A DNA stretch of 50,993 nucleotides from a virus. The DNA is taken from positions 1-50,993 of the IMG/VR virus record IMGVR_UViG_3300005732_000004; one strand, given 5' to 3'. The translations under genes were made by a program, and so were the position numbers. The notes beneath the pieces are model-generated. The model had not been told where the DNA came from. It made no database searches and saw only the letters and a program-made list of their open reading frames with translations. This document shows positions 2,167 through 47,998 of the stretch, piece after piece (position 1 is the stretch's first letter; each line of letters starts with the position of its first letter).

Positions 2167-2969
2167 AGCCCTTCCCCCTCGTAATATGGGATTTCGATTT
2201 CAACGCAAGCAGTGCGGTCTGTACATCTACTCGCTAAGTTATCCGCACCTTCCCTTGTTTCATGCAACACAAGCCTCACCCCGCTCGGATAAACATTAAC
2301 CCACCGCTTCAAAACCTTGCGCTCTGGCTCTGGCTCGATAGGAAACATGCGTTCACAATCTTTAAGATCACCGAGCACATCGCGATTAGCTTTCGGCTCT
2401 GGCTTTTCAATCTCGGCCTTAACCTCGGCCATTTCAGCGTGATACTTGTCAGATGCACCTGACGTTTTGATATTGCCTACAATTTCATCATCTGTGTCTC
2501 GCTCAACATACGTCAAATCAAGCTTTGTACTGGGGGCTGTTTTTCCGGGAGTTGTAAGTGATCCCTCTGCTTTTATAGTGAGGCTTTCTTCACCAGCAGC
2601 GCCAAACGTAATATCATTGCCCTTGGTTTGTTCGCTGGCCAATGAGATGACGCGTATTTTGGTATCTAAAGGAAATTCGATGAGAAATGTGTGTCCACAT
2701 GGTTCAGCATAGACGCTTAGATTTACCCGATTTTTGTAAGTGAATTTTTGCAGGCGATTCCGAATTAAAACCTCAAACACATCGCCAGCCTTGAGGTCGG
2801 ATATGCGGGGCTTGCTGAATGACTGGGGAATGTCGAGCGCTGTTAGGCATTGGCTATCAGCGTGGATGATTGTCTCACCATCTTCGATGTGGGTTTCTTT
2901 CACCTTAACGATAGCGCTTTCTTCTTTGTAGAAAACCCACTCACCAATTTTAATGTTTTTCTTTTTCAT
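2163..2969 (-). CDS. hypothetical protein (268 aa)
   Basis: Three parts can be seen. Residues 1-110 form a beta-rich region (GEWVFYKEESAIVKVKE... then RISDLKAGDVFEVL), reminiscent of small barrel folds. Residues 115-200 are a low-complexity acidic linker. Residues 200-268 contain ERKVLKRWVNVYPSGVRLVLHETREGA and two Cys. The C-terminal part is the pattern seen in phage accessory proteins carrying a WVNVYP-like strand. First gene of the run that ends at 147; preceded by an 85-nt leader with a hairpin. Confidence 0.68.
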   Translation of the reverse strand: MKKKNIKIGEWVFYKEESAIVKVKETHIEDGETIIHADSQCLTALDIPQSFSKPRISDLKAGDVFEVLIRNRLQKFTYKNRVNLSVYAEPCGHTFLIEFPLDTKIRVISLASEQTKGNDITFGAAGEESLTIKAEGSLTTPGKTAPSTKLDLTYVERDTDDEIVGNIKTSGASDKYHAEMAEVKAEIEKPEPKANRDVLGDLKDCERMFPIEPEPERKVLKRWVNVYPSGVRLVLHETREGADNLASRCTDRTACVEIEIPYYEGEGL

Positions 2970-7605: not shown

Positions 7606-8754
7606 CTAGATGTGGCAGTCAACCATAACGACCCAATAACTATCTGGGAGCCCTTCTATACGCTTAGTAATCGCGTCTTCCCATTCTGCTGCGTCTTTGT
7701 TATCGCTAGACATGCCGAACCACCCCATAGAACCCTTTTCGTTCCATACGCCATCTTCTAAGTATGCCCAACATGTTAATGCGGGGCGTGCTGCCGCATA
7801 TGCAATAGGGTCGCGAACAGTGTCAGGCAGAGATTCGCCCCAGCAACCCCAAGCATCTAATATCCCAGATTCTCTAGCGTCAAATACTGCGTTTCCTTCT
7901 CCTTGTTCTGTTATCCAATTTCGGTACGCGGGGCGGTCATCTTCAGGCAAGTCATCCCACTGCTTCTCGATAGACTTTTTATTGTCGATGTAGTTTAGCC
8001 ACAATTTCAACGCCTCGTCATAACTCAACCCTTTTTCGTTGATTGAGCTAATAATACCATTTAGGGCTCTATCAGCTTTTTGTTTGCGCATGGCTTCCAA
8101 ATCTAGGTTGCTAACGCACATGCCGTCGAAACCTTTTTCGTCAAACTGAGAACCCATAATTCCGGCTTCGCCCTTAAAGGCTTCTTCAGGTTTTTTGGCT
8201 AAAAGTTGTCCGCCCCATCGGCCCCCAACTTCCCACCAATCCCACTTCGCGTTAGGGTTTGTCATCCGGCCAATACGGCCATTCTGGACCTCTGTGTAAC
8301 CATGATATTTTTCTGCGTAATCCAAAAGACTGTCGTAAGCCGCGCCCTTGGTTGTCTTGAACCTTTCATATCCGAGCAAAGAACGAATTTCGTGGTCGTC
8401 CATGCGTACCTTTGCGCGGTATCCCTTGCTATCACCCCAATCTCTTGAAGACCAAGATATCCCGCCTCCGCAACCAGTCCCCATGCCAACAATGTCTTTT
8501 TCTTTTGCATTCGGCTCACGATAGAACTGGTCCTCGTAACCCTGAAAACATTCATCAGTACATGGGGTGCGCCAATACTCTGTTTCTGCTTCAAATTCCT
8601 TCAAAACTTCGGTATGCTCATCAACGAACACAACATGTTCGTCTAGAACATCCGTGCATTCATACTCGTGAAACGGCTGTAGCGCCTTAGATAATAGCTT
8701 GTTTTCCTCTGTCGGCTTTCTCGGCAATACAACTAATACAGTAAAGTGGCTCAT
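7606..8754 (-). CDS. MSHFTVLV-family hypothetical protein (382 aa)
   Basis: Starts MSHFTVLVVLPRKPTEENKL and contains LQPFHEYECTD, then NPNAKWDWWEVGGRWGG (about residues 168-184). I recognise this as the hallmark of an uncharacterised protein family spread among phages and bacteria. Trp-rich clusters recur (WSSRDWGD, DAWGCWGE, MGWFGMSS). No catalytic motif is evident. Ribosome-binding site GAGAGGATAAGAG before ATG. Downstream of a set of small minus-strand genes with similar AGAGGA leaders. Confidence 0.75.
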   Translation of the reverse strand: MSHFTVLVVLPRKPTEENKLLSKALQPFHEYECTDVLDEHVVFVDEHTEVLKEFEAETEYWRTPCTDECFQGYEDQFYREPNAKEKDIVGMGTGCGGGISWSSRDWGDSKGYRAKVRMDDHEIRSLLGYERFKTTKGAAYDSLLDYAEKYHGYTEVQNGRIGRMTNPNAKWDWWEVGGRWGGQLLAKKPEEAFKGEAGIMGSQFDEKGFDGMCVSNLDLEAMRKQKADRALNGIISSINEKGLSYDEALKLWLNYIDNKKSIEKQWDDLPEDDRPAYRNWITEQGEGNAVFDARESGILDAWGCWGESLPDTVRDPIAYAAARPALTCWAYLEDGVWNEKGSMGWFGMSSDNKDAAEWEDAITKRIEGLPDSYWVVMVDCHI

Positions 8755-10439: not shown

Positions 10440-10516
10440 TGGCGAACGCGGCAGGATTCGAACCCACAACCTGTTGACTAGAATTCAATTGCTCTATCCA
10501 GTTGAGCTACGCGTCC
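10440..10516 (-). tRNA. tRNA-Arg(TCT)
   Basis: Full cloverleaf on minus. Acceptor GGACGCG pairs with CGCGTTC (one G-T). The D-stem is GCTC/GAGC. The anticodon loop ATTCTAG sits on a 4-bp stem plus a terminal A-C mismatch. The T-arm is GTGGG-TTCGAAT-CCTGC. The anticodon TCT lies at 10480-10482 and reads AGA. Discriminator G and an encoded CCA are present. Own promoter upstream at 10527-10556. Confidence 0.95.
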
Positions 10517-10848: not shown

Positions 10849-11193
10849 ATGGACATAGAGGTTGGCGACACATTTTACCTGTTTGATATAAATAGGCGAG
10901 TTTACAAATTAAAGGATGACGGGTCACTTTTCAATTCTGGCGGTCCAATTTACCGTGAACATTTTTACCCTGTTCAAATTGAAGGTGAAACTTCAAGATC
11001 ATGGGTTTTGCCGCACGGCAAAAAAGTCCCAAAGAAAGCCCCGTTCTCAGTTCTATACACTGAAAAAATGGTCGACGAAAGTTGCTGGCTAAAATCGAAC
11101 CGCCATAAGCTTGCATCAATGGTGAATGGATGCCGTGACTTTGAGATTTTAAAACAAATTGGAGACTTGCTGGGATTTGAGGAAGACAAATGA
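10849..11193 (+). CDS. hypothetical protein (114 aa)
   Basis: Starts immediately after the upstream stop, with GGAAAGGAAGG as ribosome site. MDIEVGDTFYLFDINRRVYKLKDDG shows a small beta-barrel-like beginning. A middle segment follows with YREHFYPVQIEGETSRSW and a helical C-terminus. The residues suggest a DNA- or RNA-modification accessory fold, but no family is recognised. Confidence 0.65.
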   Translation: MDIEVGDTFYLFDINRRVYKLKDDGSLFNSGGPIYREHFYPVQIEGETSRSWVLPHGKKVPKKAPFSVLYTEKMVDESCWLKSNRHKLASMVNGCRDFEILKQIGDLLGFEEDK

Positions 11194-11515: not shown

Positions 11516-11704
11516 ATGAAACTTGATTTTGAAGGATGGACTTCGACAAGTTCACATGAACGAATTTGGCTTTGGCAGATGTGGGGAATGCGCCCGCTGT
11601 TTGTGCTGTGGTACAAGATGGGTGGCAAATATCTATCGGGCTGGACCCCGTTTGTCGTAAAGATAAACCGTCCTGTAGATAACACTAAACAAGGGAGTGA
11701 GTGA
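11516..11704 (+). CDS. Trp-rich small protein (62 aa)
   Basis: ATG preceded by AGGAGATAGAG, a strong ribosome site. MKLDFEGWTSTSSHERIWLWQMWGMRPLFVLW is unusually Trp/Met-rich and could associate with membrane or a partner surface. Operonic with the genes on both sides. Function unknown. Confidence 0.62.
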   Translation: MKLDFEGWTSTSSHERIWLWQMWGMRPLFVLWYKMGGKYLSGWTPFVVKINRPVDNTKQGSE

Positions 11705-11705
11705 G

Positions 11706-11864
11706 ATGGATAATGATTCTGACGAAATCGAATGCGCGGTAGAAATGCTGCGCCTAATCAATGGCGGTAAAACACCCGCTAAAGTTCGCCTCGCGCTAAA
11801 GCAGTCAGGCTATACGGCAGAACAAATTGCGATTGCCGGACAAGTTCTAATAGACGCTCAATAG
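11706..11864 (+). CDS. small hypothetical protein (52 aa)
   Basis: ATG at 11706 (GAGTGAGTGAG upstream). MDNDSDEIECAVEMLRLING, then KTPAKVRLALKQSGYTAEQIAIAG. This resembles a small UBA- or HTH-like three-helix bundle. Last gene of the plus cluster; its stop abuts the terminator of the convergent structured RNA. Confidence 0.58.
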   Translation: MDNDSDEIECAVEMLRLINGGKTPAKVRLALKQSGYTAEQIAIAGQVLIDAQ

Positions 11865-11893
11865 AACAAACCCCCGAACCAATGGAACGGGGG
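11862..11893 (-). terminator. terminator of the structured RNA unit
   Basis: CGGGGG (11893-11888 region) and CCCCCG (11871-11876) form a 6-bp GC stem. On minus it is followed by TTTGTTCTAT. It marks the 3' end of the minus transcript that starts near 12434, and it overlaps the stop of the convergent gene by 3 bases. Confidence 0.7.
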
Positions 11894-12434
11894 CTTATAA
11901 AGAACTAACCCGTACACCGACAAACAAGATGATCAAACTTGATGCACTATTTGGTGCAGTGGGGTTAGTCATAAAGCAAGGCCGAAGCCTTGGGCCTACC
12001 GACACGCGATAGGTGGGTGATGTTATTAACACGCCGTCTTAGTTAATCACTCGGTCCTTAGACTTTATCGAGCCAGACTGGTCCGCTGGGCCTTGGTTGT
12101 GTACCATTCAGGATTTATAACCATTAAGTCTGAGCTTTTCGACAATCTCAGAATACCCGGTCACCCACGATGTTAAACTGTTATTACTGTAGGCAGGGCG
12201 CTAATCCTGCTTGCTGCAAGTACCACGGCTTACTGGGAACCCTAACCCCCGAACAAATCTTTAGGCTTTCGCCAAGGATTGAACCAACTATGCAGTCATT
12301 CACGTGACCTAGTGCTTCTGCTTTCAGCACCGCTACAGTAATTTGTTTTTGAAGCCGCCGAAACCAAAGTTACCCAAGGTTCATCCCGTCCATATAGGTA
12401 CGGGGGGCACGGACGCGGCTTCAAAACTCGATTT
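11863..12434 (-). ncRNA. candidate large structured noncoding RNA (~570 nt)
   Basis: Gene-free but highly structured, with its own promoter and terminator on minus. Helices, given in plus coordinates, are 12415-12426 with 12347-12358 (12 bp, perfect), 12333-12342 with 12183-12192 (10 bp, perfect, enclosing about 140 nt), 12161-12168 with 12013-12020 (8 bp, perfect), and 11962-11969 with 11904-11911 (8 bp). Hairpins on minus include CAAGGC-UUCG-GCCUUG (11977-11992) and a stem capped GGC-GAAA-GCC (12264-12273). These stable tetraloops exist only in the minus sense. An alternative 8-bp pairing, 12242-12249 with 11961-11968, competes with the last helix. Size and phage setting recall the ROOL and GOLLD ornate RNAs; I cannot show homology to either. 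Confidence 0.75.
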
Positions 12435-12440
12435 ATAGCA

Positions 12441-12469
12441 ATCATAAAACATGCAGCAATACACGTCAA
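12441..12469 (-). promoter_or_regulatory. sigma70-type promoter of the structured RNA
   Basis: On minus: TTGACG (12469-12464), a 17-nt spacer, then TATGAT (12446-12441). Each hexamer differs from consensus at one position. Predicted start near 12434. It begins right after the terminator of the upstream minus operon, which isolates the RNA as its own unit. Confidence 0.8.
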
Positions 12470-12470
12470 C

Positions 12471-12495
12471 AAAAAAGACCCGCCATAACAGCGGG
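12471..12495 (-). terminator. terminator of the RusA/GapR-like operon
   Basis: GCGGG (12495-12491) pairs with CCCGC (12483-12479) across a 7-nt loop; on minus it is followed by TCTTTTTTG. It ends transcription from the 12528-13378 operon before the structured-RNA promoter. Confidence 0.85.
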
Positions 12496-12527
12496 CCAGT
12501 TTCTACCTGGGGAGGGATCAGGCAGGG

Positions 12528-12809
12528 TTATTCGGAATCGTCGTCTTGATCACCAGCCTCAAACAACGGCAACATGCCAAGCGCTTGCTTATAGAGGTCA
12601 AGAACTGCCTCTTGTTCTGATCGCTCGTGCGGCTCTTGCTTGCGGAGCTTGACGATTTCTCGCATTGCCTTTGGATCAAAACCGCCGCCCTTGGCTTCAG
12701 CATAGACATCGCGGATATCGTCAGAGATTGATTTTTTCTCAGCCTCAAGAGTTTCTATGCGTTCTATAAATGCGCGGAGTTGTTCACGAGCGATTGTTGA
12801 ATTACCCAT
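12528..12809 (-). CDS. DUF2312 / GapR-like nucleoid protein (93 aa)
   Basis: [21 protein letters not shown], then [27 protein letters not shown], is the signature of DUF2312. That family's founding member, GapR of Caulobacter, is an essential protein that binds overtwisted DNA and helps topoisomerases. Residues 5-35 form the coiled coil and 40-80 the helical DNA-binding part; the C-terminus is acidic (DQDDDSE). Full family length. Strong marker for an alphaproteobacterial host. It follows rusA with an 8-base overlap, so it is expressed with recombination functions. Whether it supports phage replication or interferes with host GapR is inference. Confidence 0.85.
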
Positions 12810-15676: not shown

Positions 15677-15804
15677 GTGGCAAAACAACAACCATCCTAG
15701 AACGTCTAGACGCACTAGCAGCAAAGCTAGACGCTAGGTCTATTGTGCTTGATGACATTAAGCGCGATGTGGATATGATCAAAGAATTGGTGGGCGTGGA
15801 ATAA
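15673..15804 (+). CDS. small helical protein (43 aa)
   Basis: ATGAGTGGC at 15673. MSGKTTTILERLDALAAKLD, then SIVLDDIKRDVDMIKELVG, predicts a single amphipathic helix pair or short coiled coil. The TAA overlaps by one base the ATG of the intein-bearing gene. Unknown. Confidence 0.55.
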   Translation: MSGKTTTILERLDALAAKLDARSIVLDDIKRDVDMIKELVGVE

Positions 15805-17717
15805 TGGCAGAAAATAGCGGTATCGAGTGGACGCATCACACGTTCAACCCTTGGATCGGATGCACTAAAGTAAGTGCGGCATGTGATAATTGCCTGCACC
15901 CCGACACGCTCGTGATGATGTCTGATTCAAGTTGGAGGCGTATAGGTGAACTGTCCGCAGGTGACGTTCTTTATGGCTTCAGTGAAGGCCAAGGAGCGGG
16001 GAGGAACCGCGTAGGCGCTCCTTCTTTGGTCGAGGCAGTGTGGGAGACGTCTGCCCCAACAATCACAATTAGGACTTCAAGTGGGAAGGAGATAACAGGG
16101 AGCAAAAATCACCTGTTCTTGGTTCGAACGCCTAGCAGGACGGTATGGAAACGTGCTGATGAACTTACGATAGGGTCGGTATTACTCGGATGGGGCGACC
16201 CTAAGACCGCGGCCAATATTTCAGACCCAGACTATGCATCAGGTTATGTTGCTGGCGTTTCCGATGGGGATGGGACTTTAAGGTTCGACGCAGATTGGCG
16301 CTCAGACAAATGTGGTTTTCCTCAGATGTATTGGCGCGTTGCAGTACTGGAAACTGATCGGCCACTGATTGATCGTCTTTTGTCTTCACTTCACATTCTT
16401 GGTGTCGATCTTCACGAAAGACCTTTTTCAGGCGGGGGGGATTGCAAGCCAATGATCAAGGTCGAAACACGGGCCAAGAAGACAATCCAAGCGGTTGTAG
16501 ACGCAATGGGCTTTAGGGACGCAGACCAATGGAAGGCGGGTTGGTTGGCAGGTTTCTTGGACACAGACGGATTTTGTTCAGGCAGTGCAAGAGCATCAGG
16601 AGTCGTCCACCGGTGGAGCCAAGTTTATGAACGCAACGGCCATCTTGATCGCACTGTCCAGTTTATTCACGATCTTGGTTTTCGGGCGACACTTGAACGG
16701 TATGAAAATCGCGCTTCAACAGTCGTACTCAACGTCAACAGCGTTGAGGAGCGGTTCCGCTTTATCGGGACAATTCGTCCGGCTCTATCCCGCAAAGGAG
16801 TAGATAGGGTCTACGGCTCCAAGCACGCGCCCAATGAAGACGCAGTAACACAACTGATCGAGGGGCCCGAAGATAAATTGATTGACATAACAACTTCTAC
16901 GCGGACTTTCGTCGCCAATGGGGTATCAACTCACAATTGCTACGCTGAAGCATGGGACAACCGATTTAATGGAGAACGGTGGGGCGCAAAAGCTGCGCGG
17001 ACAAGAACCAAAACATGGGGCAACCCTGTCAAGTGGCAAAAACAGGCCAAGGCGAACGGCAAACGATACCGCGTGTTCGTGGCTTCATTGGCTGACGTAT
17101 TCGACAACCACAAATCTATTCAGCCAGAATGGCGGCATGAACTTTGGTGCTTGATTAAGCAATGTCCTGACTTGGACTTTCTAATGCTTACAAAGCGCCC
17201 TCAGAACATCAAAAAGTATCTACCCGATGATTGGGGTGCTGGATATCCGAACGTTTGGCTTGGGACCACGGTTGAAGATCAAACCGAAGCTGATAGGCGC
17301 ATCCCGCATCTGCTGGACGTTCCTGCGCGATTACACTTCTTATCGTGTGAGCCTTTGCTGGGGTATGTTGATCTTGCCGAGTGTTGGCACGGGGAAGACG
17401 CGCTAGGGTCCGAATGCTGGGGCGATTGCGGATGGTGTGAAAATGGGCGCATTCCATTGCATAATTGTGCCAAGGGCAAACAGACCAACGAGCAGTTTTC
17501 AAAAGGTCACAGTGGCATAGGCTGGGTGATCACTGGCGGCGAGAACGCGACGGAGTTTCGTTCTGCTAACCCCGATTGGTTTAGGTCATTACGTGATCAA
17601 TGCGCTTTGGCTGACGTGCCGTTCCTGTTTAAACAATGGGAAGGCAAAAGCCAAAAAGAAATCAAGGCTAAAGGCCGCGAATTAGATGGTGTTATTCATG
17701 ACGGGTATCCCGCATGA
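15804..17717 (+). CDS. DUF5131 (phage Gp37/Gp68 family) protein interrupted by an intein (637 aa precursor)
   Basis: The N-extein MAENSGIEWTHHTFNPWIGC, then TKVSAACDN, and the C-extein starting CYAEAWDNRF together give the family's conserved three-Cys motif (C20, C27 and the +1 extein Cys). The rest of the C-extein has the family's FVASLADVFDNH, LDFLMLTKRP, WLGTTVEDQ and FLSCEPLL motifs. The second of these follows the NW/NPV region near residue 400. The mature protein after splicing would be about 288 aa, a normal length. The family is common in phages; its biochemical role is not settled. It lies between small helical genes and a YbcO-like nuclease in the recombination operon. Confidence 0.9.
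   Translation: MAENSGIEWTHHTFNPWIGCTKVSAACDNCLHPDTLVMMSDSSWRRIGELSAGDVLYGFSEGQGAGRNRVGAPSLVEAVWETSAPTITIRTSSGKEITGSKNHLFLVRTPSRTVWKRADELTIGSVLLGWGDPKTAANISDPDYASGYVAGVSDGDGTLRFDADWRSDKCGFPQMYWRVAVLETDRPLIDRLLSSLHILGVDLHERPFSGGGDCKPMIKVETRAKKTIQAVVDAMGFRDADQWKAGWLAGFLDTDGFCSGSARASGVVHRWSQVYERNGHLDRTVQFIHDLGFRATLERYENRASTVVLNVNSVEERFRFIGTIRPALSRKGVDRVYGSKHAPNEDAVTQLIEGPEDKLIDITTSTRTFVANGVSTHNCYAEAWDNRFNGERWGAKAARTRTKTWGNPVKWQKQAKANGKRYRVFVASLADVFDNHKSIQPEWRHELWCLIKQCPDLDFLMLTKRPQNIKKYLPDDWGAGYPNVWLGTTVEDQTEADRRIPHLLDVPARLHFLSCEPLLGYVDLAECWHGEDALGSECWGDCGWCENGRIPLHNCAKGKQTNEQFSKGHSGIGWVITGGENATEFRSANPDWFRSLRDQCALADVPFLFKQWEGKSQKEIKAKGRELDGVIHDGYPA
15891..16937 (+). other. intein with LAGLIDADG homing endonuclease (349 aa)
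   Basis: Residues 30-378 of the precursor. It starts with Cys (CLHPDTLVMMSDSSWRRIGEL, block A) and has a TGSKNHLFLV block B. Two dodecapeptide motifs are present, YVAGVSDGDGTL and WLAGFLDTDGFC. It ends FVANGVSTHN before the +1 Cys, giving the penultimate His and terminal Asn needed for splicing. All splice residues are intact. The insertion falls exactly before the third Cys of the host protein's three-Cys motif. Codon usage looks more GC-rich than the flanks, suggesting acquisition. Confidence 0.93.
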
Positions 17718-35530: not shown

Positions 35531-36157
35531 TCATGAAGGTTCATAGAAAGCAACCGAAATAGAAAGCGGGTTATTTGATCCTGATATATTAGTGACCCTA
35601 AACAGGTAATCTTCACTAGATTTCAGAATATATTCTTCGAATGAAGTGGCAATCGCTCCTGTTGATTTGCCAGTTCCCCCGCCTGGAGCCAAATGATCGG
35701 CTAAAATAGTGCCATCCGCTGATGTTGTTGGAGTATGATATACAGATGTAACAGCGGTGTTAGCCGATGTTCTGTTTCGATTGACTGGCGTTATCGCAGT
35801 TCCGTTATCTGTTACTGTCGGGTTTTCGAATATTTGAATTCTAGCATCCCCACCAACCCCCGCTTGAAATCTTATATGAACGGATTGGCTAGCATCCGTG
35901 CTGATGAGCATTTCAATCGTTTCGTCATCAGCTACGCTTTCACTAACATAATCTGCCTCAAATGCTATCCCATTATGGATTTGCTTATGAACCATGTTTT
36001 GAGTAACAAGTGCGTTTGCGGTTGCATCAACTTCGACAAGCTCACCACTAGACCCACCAACGAGCATGACCGCAACAACCTCAGCATGGGAACCGTCGCC
36101 CATGTCTCTTAGTCGCCTAGATGTGTCTGCCGCCGATGGGTAAGTTTTGTCTGACAT
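35531..36157 (-). CDS. hypothetical virion protein (208 aa)
   Basis: MSDKTYPSAADTSRRLRDMG, then a beta-rich sequence with FEADYVSESVADDETIEMLI and a C-terminal LFRVTNISGSNNPLSISVAFYE strand. Typical of capsid-associated beta-sandwich proteins in tailed phages. Coupled to 36157-36522 by a one-base overlap. Unknown. Confidence 0.65.
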   Translation of the reverse strand: MSDKTYPSAADTSRRLRDMGDGSHAEVVAVMLVGGSSGELVEVDATANALVTQNMVHKQIHNGIAFEADYVSESVADDETIEMLISTDASQSVHIRFQAGVGGDARIQIFENPTVTDNGTAITPVNRNRTSANTAVTSVYHTPTTSADGTILADHLAPGGGTGKSTGAIATSFEEYILKSSEDYLFRVTNISGSNNPLSISVAFYEPS

Positions 36158-36522
36158 TAGCCAATAAGCACCGTAAATGTGCCTGATTTAGTATCGCCGC
36201 CTTGGGCAATAACGATTTCTACACGGTCACCAGCCATTGCGATAGGTTCATAAATCTCGTTGGTCCCGTCATAGGTCACGCCGCCACCGACCTGATCAGT
36301 GACGGGAACACGAGGGTAAACGCTTTTAGCAGCGTTCACATTTGATTCGGTCCACAAGCCTTCGCCTGTAGCCTCGGAAGTGATAGTAAAGTCCACACCA
36401 TCCGCAAAATCAGTCTTTGCGTAGTGAATAGACAAGATGCGGCCATGATCTACACTGATATAATCAGTAGCATCGCCATCTGCATCCGTTGTTATTGTGA
36501 CTGATTTGCGTTGAATGAACAT
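36157..36522 (-). CDS. hypothetical virion protein (121 aa)
   Basis: MFIQRKSVTITTDADGDATD, then YISVDHGRILSIHYAKTDFADG, VPVTDQVGGGVTYDGT and a C-terminal GDTKSGTFTVLIG strand. This beta-sandwich layout recurs in phage head genes near the capsid. Unknown. Confidence 0.66.
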   Translation of the reverse strand: MFIQRKSVTITTDADGDATDYISVDHGRILSIHYAKTDFADGVDFTITSEATGEGLWTESNVNAAKSVYPRVPVTDQVGGGVTYDGTNEIYEPIAMAGDRVEIVIAQGGDTKSGTFTVLIG

Positions 36523-46849: not shown

Positions 46850-47317
46850 TTAGAATGGGATATCATCGTCCATGCCCCCACTATCAAAGGCTGGCGCACT
46901 TGCTTGAGGCCGACCACCCGCCCCCGCATCGTTCGAACGTGACCCGCTACTATCGTTGTTATCACTGCGGCCACCTAACATTGTTAGTGTTGAGTTGAAT
47001 CCCTGAAGCACGATTTCGGTTGAATAACGGTCATTCCCGTCTTGATCCTGCCATTTGCGCGTTTGCAATTGCCCCTCTAAATAGACTTGTGAGCCTTTCT
47101 TTAGATATTGCTCAGCGACACGACATAGACCTTCGGAGAAGATCACAACGCGGTGCCATTCTGTTTTTTCGCGCTGCTCACCTGAATTCTTGTCGCGCCA
47201 CCGTTCAGATGTCGCGATGCGCAAATTGACGATGGGACGCCCATCTTGCGTGTTGCGAACTTCTGGGTCTGCGCCAAGCGACCCAACTAGAATTACTTTG
47301 TTTACACTTCCTGCCAT
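46850..47317 (-). CDS. ssb: single-stranded DNA-binding protein (155 aa)
   Basis: OB-fold: [21 protein letters not shown], then [38 protein letters not shown] and [17 protein letters not shown], a Gly/Ser-rich linker and the acidic tip DDDIPF. Complete. It coats single strands in replication and recombination and would cooperate with the Rad52-type annealing protein. Possible use of the host SSB interaction network via the tip. Confidence 0.95.
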
Positions 47318-47426
47318 TATATTTACCTAAATGTTTTGGACATATAGTCCTGTAATTTAAGCATAGGGGGTTATCAGCCCCCCATACCGTGCGAATTGAG
47401 CAAAGCTTACAACAAAGCTTTACAGA
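47318..47426. other. 109-nt gap with two strong hairpins upstream of ssb
   Basis: No gene. AAAGCTT/AAGCTTT (about 47402-47422, 6-nt loop) and GGGGG/CCCCC (about 47366-47383) form hairpins on either strand; neither is followed by a U-tract. Likely leader structure of ssb or a terminator of the upstream operon on minus. Confidence 0.45.
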
Positions 47427-47525
47427 TTATCGAGATTGGTTCTTAGCGGGTCTCCTCGCTGGTTCTAACTGCTTACCGTCTACCAGCTTCGCGCGTGTAA
47501 GCCCCCTTGGGGTATTGGCCATCAT
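47427..47525 (-). CDS. small basic protein (32 aa)
   Basis: ATG at 47525, overlapping the previous gene's TGA. MMANTPRGLTRAKLVDGKQL, then EPARRPAKNQSR: basic and natural-looking. A plus-strand frame over the region (47389-47652) is its shadow. Likely nucleic-acid-associated; unknown. Confidence 0.5.
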   Translation of the reverse strand: MMANTPRGLTRAKLVDGKQLEPARRPAKNQSR

Positions 47526-47998
47526 TGGCCCTTGGTTAAAACTTTATCCATGCGGATTTTATGCCGCATTCTTCCGTTGGCTACTAAACTATGGCAACGG
47601 GAACCAAACAGTTCACCCAGAGAACCATCGGAATAGCCAAATTTCTCTTTAAGCCAATAATAACACTCACATCGACACGCATGTGTGATTGCGTCTTTAA
47701 CAGCTTTGGATAACAAAATATTTCTATGTATTTTATACCTTTTTGCAATCTTATCAATTACTTGATCTGGGCCAAGATCGGTAAAATCATCGCTCGTGAA
47801 AAGCTTGATCGAATTTAGGAAATCCTTTTGACCGCCTTTTGTCCGAGCATCATATCTTTTCTTTTCTAGTTCACGTTGTTTTTGCGCTTTCCTTATCTGG
47901 TTTAGATATTCGCGCTTCACTACAGTTGGCTTTGATGGCCATAGTCTTGATTTAGCCTCAGAATATCCCTGAACGATTTCTTGTACACTTTGTCCCAT
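47522..47998 (-). CDS. DnaA domain-IV-like DNA-binding protein (158 aa)
   Basis: Helical basic N-terminus (KREYLNQIRKAQKQRELEKK). The C-terminal part (about 85-150) follows the DnaA domain IV pattern: AKRYKIHRNILLSKAVKDAI, CYYWLKEKFGYSDGSLGELF, then GSRCHSLVANGRMRHKI in place of GGRDHSTVLHA. The Arg/His signature is kept in altered form. No AAA+ domain. Proteins of this type may bind DnaA-box-like sites; candidate regulator of host or phage replication. Confidence 0.75.
   Translation of the reverse strand: MGQSVQEIVQGYSEAKSRLWPSKPTVVKREYLNQIRKAQKQRELEKKRYDARTKGGQKDFLNSIKLFTSDDFTDLGPDQVIDKIAKRYKIHRNILLSKAVKDAITHACRCECYYWLKEKFGYSDGSLGELFGSRCHSLVANGRMRHKIRMDKVLTKGQ

Follow-up and report, generated by a model that had tools for sequence, protein, structure and literature searches.

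What does the longest stretch without a sizeable ORF encode in this phage genome? The window analysed is a whole virus contig from IMG/VR, 50,993 bases long, with genes for a terminase, a DnaB-like helicase, and RusA-like and GapR-like proteins. Nowhere else in the record does so much sequence lack an ORF of 60 aa as at 11705-12517 (813 nt, as compared to 359 nt for the next such stretch); a likely 52-aa gene on the plus strand (11706-11864) falls within it. We assign a probability of about 58% to the reading that 11863-12434, on the minus strand, is a self-contained, multi-domain noncoding RNA gene carried by an alphaproteobacterial phage and matching no Rfam family. Its approximately 570 bases code for no protein, carry start and stop signals of their own for transcription and fold well as RNA, which makes a large noncoding RNA gene probable, at present as a single orphan sequence.

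The phage terminase has its nearest relatives on short IMG/VR contigs (up to 77% identity), and it is 70% identical to the terminases of prophages in a Roseovarius metagenome-assembled genome (MAG) and 55% identical to that of a Rhizobium phage; from these relatives, the host is most likely an alphaproteobacterium. The Roseovarius MAG (OX638333.1), the closest whole-genome relative by terminase, contains three very similar prophages (L152, L153 and L154). Directly upstream of the RNA stretch lies the gene for the GapR-like DNA-binding protein (12528-12809, minus strand; PF10073, E 2.5e-35), followed by an intrinsic terminator found by the terminator scan, GGCCCGCTGTTATGGCGGGTC and then TTTTTT (12477-12497, minus strand). 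At the other end, the small convergent 52-aa ORF (plus strand) has no family match and stops at the terminal hairpin of the RNA stretch. A tRNA reported 1.4 kb away by the first-pass annotation is a tRNA-Arg (TCT) at 10440-10516 on the minus strand, 1.35 kb from the RNA stretch; plus-strand ORFs lie in between, and this is a single tRNA, not a tRNA island. Elsewhere in the record, a DUF5131 protein (15804-17717, plus strand) is split by a probable intein, with an Intein_splicing match (E 3e-5) under the curated cut-off.

A motif scan located the promoter-like sequence TTGACG-17-TATGAT that had been described on the minus strand at 12469-12441, placing the predicted transcription start near 12434. 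The gapR terminator (12497-12477) ends in a U-run, and the site comes directly behind it. Only five sites on the minus strand of the record match the promoter consensus at 10 of 12 positions, this one among them, and at that density the probability of a chance site within about 60 nt behind a terminator is roughly 0.006 by our estimate; around the RNA stretch, the count of promoter-like sites equals the chance expectation. Coding capacity is absent from the stretch. The longest ORF with a start codon is just 48 aa on the minus strand (12184-12330), in agreement with the ORF absence claimed before, and 45 aa on the plus strand, and a search of all frames against PHROGs gave no convincing match (best E 0.09, over 15 residues). 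The probable terminator is the hairpin AAGCCCCCG...CGGGGGUU with the tail UUUGUUCU (11866-11897, minus strand; z = −4.5 on the minus strand and −2.6 on the plus strand). Of the GC hairpin and U-rich tail noticed earlier, the hairpin proved strong, but the tail is only partly U-rich, a fair U-tail that is interrupted. The terminator scan did not report this hairpin, which we attribute to its 11-nt loop, as the scan takes loops of 3 to 8 nt. One Roseovarius-family genome (L165) contains a near-identical hairpin. At the sequence level the stretch thus has what is expected of a noncoding RNA gene, its own promoter and terminator without an ORF, and the order of terminator, promoter, ORF-poor structured stretch and terminator supports the self-contained noncoding unit that the first-pass annotation had put forward.

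The predicted fold of the minus strand is a chain of separately closed units, with no helix connecting the two ends of the RNA and with pair probabilities above 0.7 for most helices. A perfect 12-bp helix (12426-12415/12358-12347) closes the hairpin domain D1 (12347-12426), and a perfect 10-bp helix (12342-12333/12192-12183) closes the multi-branched domain D2 (12183-12342). Domain D3 (12013-12168), a long irregular arm with a side hairpin, has a perfect closing helix of 8 bp (12168-12161/12020-12013). These three helices had been proposed from the sequence, and a script verified each of them. They are followed by hairpin H4 (11996-12012; 6 bp, CGUGU loop), hairpin H5 (11977-11992; CAAGGC-UUCG-GCCUUG), domain D6 (11904-11969), a hairpin domain closed by ACUAACCC/GGGUUAGU, and the terminator. 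The UUCG hairpin (11992-11977) and a GAAA hairpin with a GGC/GCC stem (12273-12264) exist in the minus sense only, just as first described. Chance does not account for the long helices: among 200 dinucleotide-shuffled sequences, none contained a pair of perfect helices this long (at least 10 bp each), and 1% had one perfect helix of 12 bp. Weaker evidence comes from helices of at least 8 bp, of which we observed 5 as compared to 1.9 expected, a number that 4.5% of shuffles attained.

The minus strand also folds better than the plus strand (−194 vs −172 kcal/mol), with fold z-scores for the whole stretch of −3.24 and −1.88, respectively, and of −1.98 for the minus-strand core without the terminator. 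By domain, D1 (z = −4.3), D3 (−2.5) and D6 (−3.2) exceed shuffled sequences in stability, and D2 reaches only −1.0. As a control we slid a window along the same phage (182 windows; mean z −0.48, sd 1.33). The RNA stretch ranks fourth, three windows score better, some coding windows reach a comparable z, and other windows lie at about −4. Two windows that outscore the RNA stretch, 47131-47702 on the plus strand (z = −4.1) and 35931-36502 on the minus strand (z = −4.4), overlap predicted genes. Following this control we rejected the fold z-score as proof; we give more weight to the helices and the layout, and treat thermodynamic stability as supporting only.

Part of the D2 domain is a recurring element. 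The 19-nt hairpin CCUUGGCGAAAGCCUAAAG (12259-12277, minus strand), with a GAAA loop and an asymmetric inner loop, came to light in a k-mer scan of IMG/VR, in which 17 stretches, roughly 11 distinct ones among them, contained its 16-mer CTTGGCGAAAGCCTAA. Four or more independent copies (L134; L135 with its relative L143; L138; L145) are noncoding, in the same sense as here, and about 100-150 nt upstream of an ORF, and most of these leader copies extend to CCUUGGCGAAAGCCUAAAG. Within the leaders, CCUUGGCGAAAGCCUAAA(G) is located at 8092-8107 (minus) in L134, 6947-6962 (plus) in L135, 5005-5020 (minus) in L138, 3725-3740 (minus) in L143 and 2405-2420 (minus) in L145. Read by eye, the ORFs below the leaders are major capsid-like (L135, L143 and L138) and reverse-transcriptase-like (L145). 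No Rfam family covers the leaders bearing CTTGGCGAAAGCCTAA. Judged from these sequences, the CCUUGGCGAAAGCCUAAAG hairpin may be a reusable RNA module or building block, or a leader RNA, across unrelated phages. Its inner loop CUUGG / CCUAAAG resembles the UAUGG / CCUAA(A)G of the 11-nt GAAA tetraloop receptor, an RNA module of which the CCUAAAG_UAUGG insertion variant has been studied (PMC11381326). The phage hairpin differs from the receptor at two of the five positions of the UAUGG strand and carries the receptor-like loop and the GAAA loop together in the same hairpin; we therefore retain the similarity as a resemblance only.

We searched widely for relatives of the RNA. Rfam cmscan with all 4227 families, at the gathering score and at E values up to 10, gave no relevant match; weak matches to SorX, SorY and similar families correspond to the gapR terminator, and introns, riboswitches, tmRNA, RNase P, 6S and other families gave no match to a curated model. 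Searches by blastn of 50,697 phages and 72,556 plasmids returned nothing or one 28-nt chance match, and four exact 16/17-mer scans of IMG/VR returned scattered single matches, none of which reached a second part of the RNA. We found no homologue in 50 related virus records searched by BLAST and 50 searched with the D3 covariance model, in the Roseovarius family (298 genomes by BLAST, 397 with the D2 model), or in 385 genomes of the same class (BLAST and D3 model), and no matching region in the three Roseovarius prophages (BLAST, D2 and D3 models). The short BLAST matches in same-family and same-class genomes are the look-alike terminator (L165) and two coding sequences, L183 and L184, that by eye are ClpS-like and amino-acid-transporter-like, respectively. 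Synteny was no more productive: none of 80 loci anchored on GapR has a similar gap beside gapR, and RusA and DnaB as anchors yielded no relatives. Because each covariance model derives from a single sequence and filtering was stricter in the large genome scans, diverged relatives may have escaped. The covariance search suggested by the first-pass annotation, run on the Rfam models and on related virus records, prophages and bacterial genomes, supplied zero homologues for the helix comparison that was to follow.

The absence of a homologue from every collection searched, together with a modest z-score for the core and similar scores for coding windows, could also be explained by a fast-evolving intergenic spacer or a decayed gene, in which the promoter, helices and hairpins would be partly chance and only the two terminators functional. 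We regard this as rather unlikely, given that no other ORF-poor stretch of this dense phage genome comes near it in length, that perfect helices of 12 and 10 bp are unexpected by chance, and that the promoter lies exactly behind the upstream terminator. A small fast-evolving protein encoded on either strand is hardly plausible, with six frames that hold short ORFs only and no family match, even though ORFs of 45-48 aa are present and the neighbouring 52-aa plus-strand ORF is likewise without relatives.

The strand GUUCGGGGGUUAG in D2 (12242-12254, minus strand) bears on another explanation. Its first 11 nt, GUUCGGGGGUU (12254-12244), exactly repeat the 3' arm of the terminator (11879-11869), which would permit an antiterminator-like alternative pairing, and GGGGUUAG (12249-12242) forms eight perfect pairs with CUAACCCC (11968-11961) of D6. 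This part of D2 also has the lowest pair probabilities, and the pairing of GGGGUUAG with CUAACCCC could reflect a pseudoknot or a switch, or be fortuitous. The repeat, the alternative pairing and the low pair probabilities speak for a regulatory or antisense RNA. In one version the transcript, whole or as a processed part, would pair with other RNAs of the phage or the host; in the other it would work as a switch, with GUUCGGGGGUUAG capturing the D6 or the terminator 5' arm and thereby controlling read-through below 11863. Taken jointly, these two versions seem quite unlikely: G-run repeats can arise by chance, they are without comparative support, and read-through would first run antisense to the plus-strand ORFs at 11706-11864, 11516-11704 and 10849-11193.

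For the noncoding RNA gene that we favour, a host sigma-70-type promoter right behind the gapR terminator would start a transcript of about 570 nt, which an intrinsic terminator opposite the convergent 52-aa ORF would end. The transcript would form D1, D2, D3, H4, H5 and D6 side by side, each closed on its own, and we infer that it is transcribed, folds in this way in the cell and acts as an RNA, probably in a stable structural or protein-binding role and not as a simple antisense RNA.

ROOL and GOLLD build RNA-only cages larger than ribosomes (PMC12286853). ROOL is likewise phage-encoded, noncoding and composed of several helical domains, and its model of 574 positions is close to the approximately 570 nt here; one ROOL example has 659 nt, and ROOL often lies near tRNAs (PMC12286853), often near a tRNA island, as compared to the single tRNA-Arg at this phage locus. 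GOLLD, too, is large, noncoding and found in phages, frequently close to tRNA genes, and many GOLLD RNAs exceed 800 nt (PMC12286853), longer than the RNA described here. The phage location, the size, the several domains, the GAAA loop with its receptor-like inner loop and the tRNA at 1.35 kb would fit a new large phage RNA that, like ROOL and GOLLD, assembles from RNA alone into multimers. We consider such a cage highly doubtful. The ROOL model (RF03087) gave no match at E up to 10, either here or in control genomes, which leaves that search with no positive control, and neither did GOLLD and the related models among the 4227 families, in line with the earlier statement that nothing could be matched to GOLLD or ROOL; possible kissing loops are without comparative support, and the only palindrome of 8 nt is UCACGUGA, from 12307. 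The one specific link to ROOL and GOLLD is the nearby tRNA, and it is one tRNA with plus-strand ORFs in between. We also think it very unlikely that the RNA is the first known representative of a separate, new RNA class, made up of large multi-domain phage RNAs that form higher-order assemblies and are analogous, but unrelated, to ROOL and GOLLD; such assembly may go, for example, through the GAAA hairpin and the GUUCGGGGGUUAG strand. To our knowledge, phages have yielded few large noncoding RNAs. If the noncoding RNA gene is real, its presence in an alphaproteobacterial phage, with the size of ROOL and no relation to ROOL or GOLLD, would point to such RNAs being commoner than model-based searches show, because these searches find described families only.
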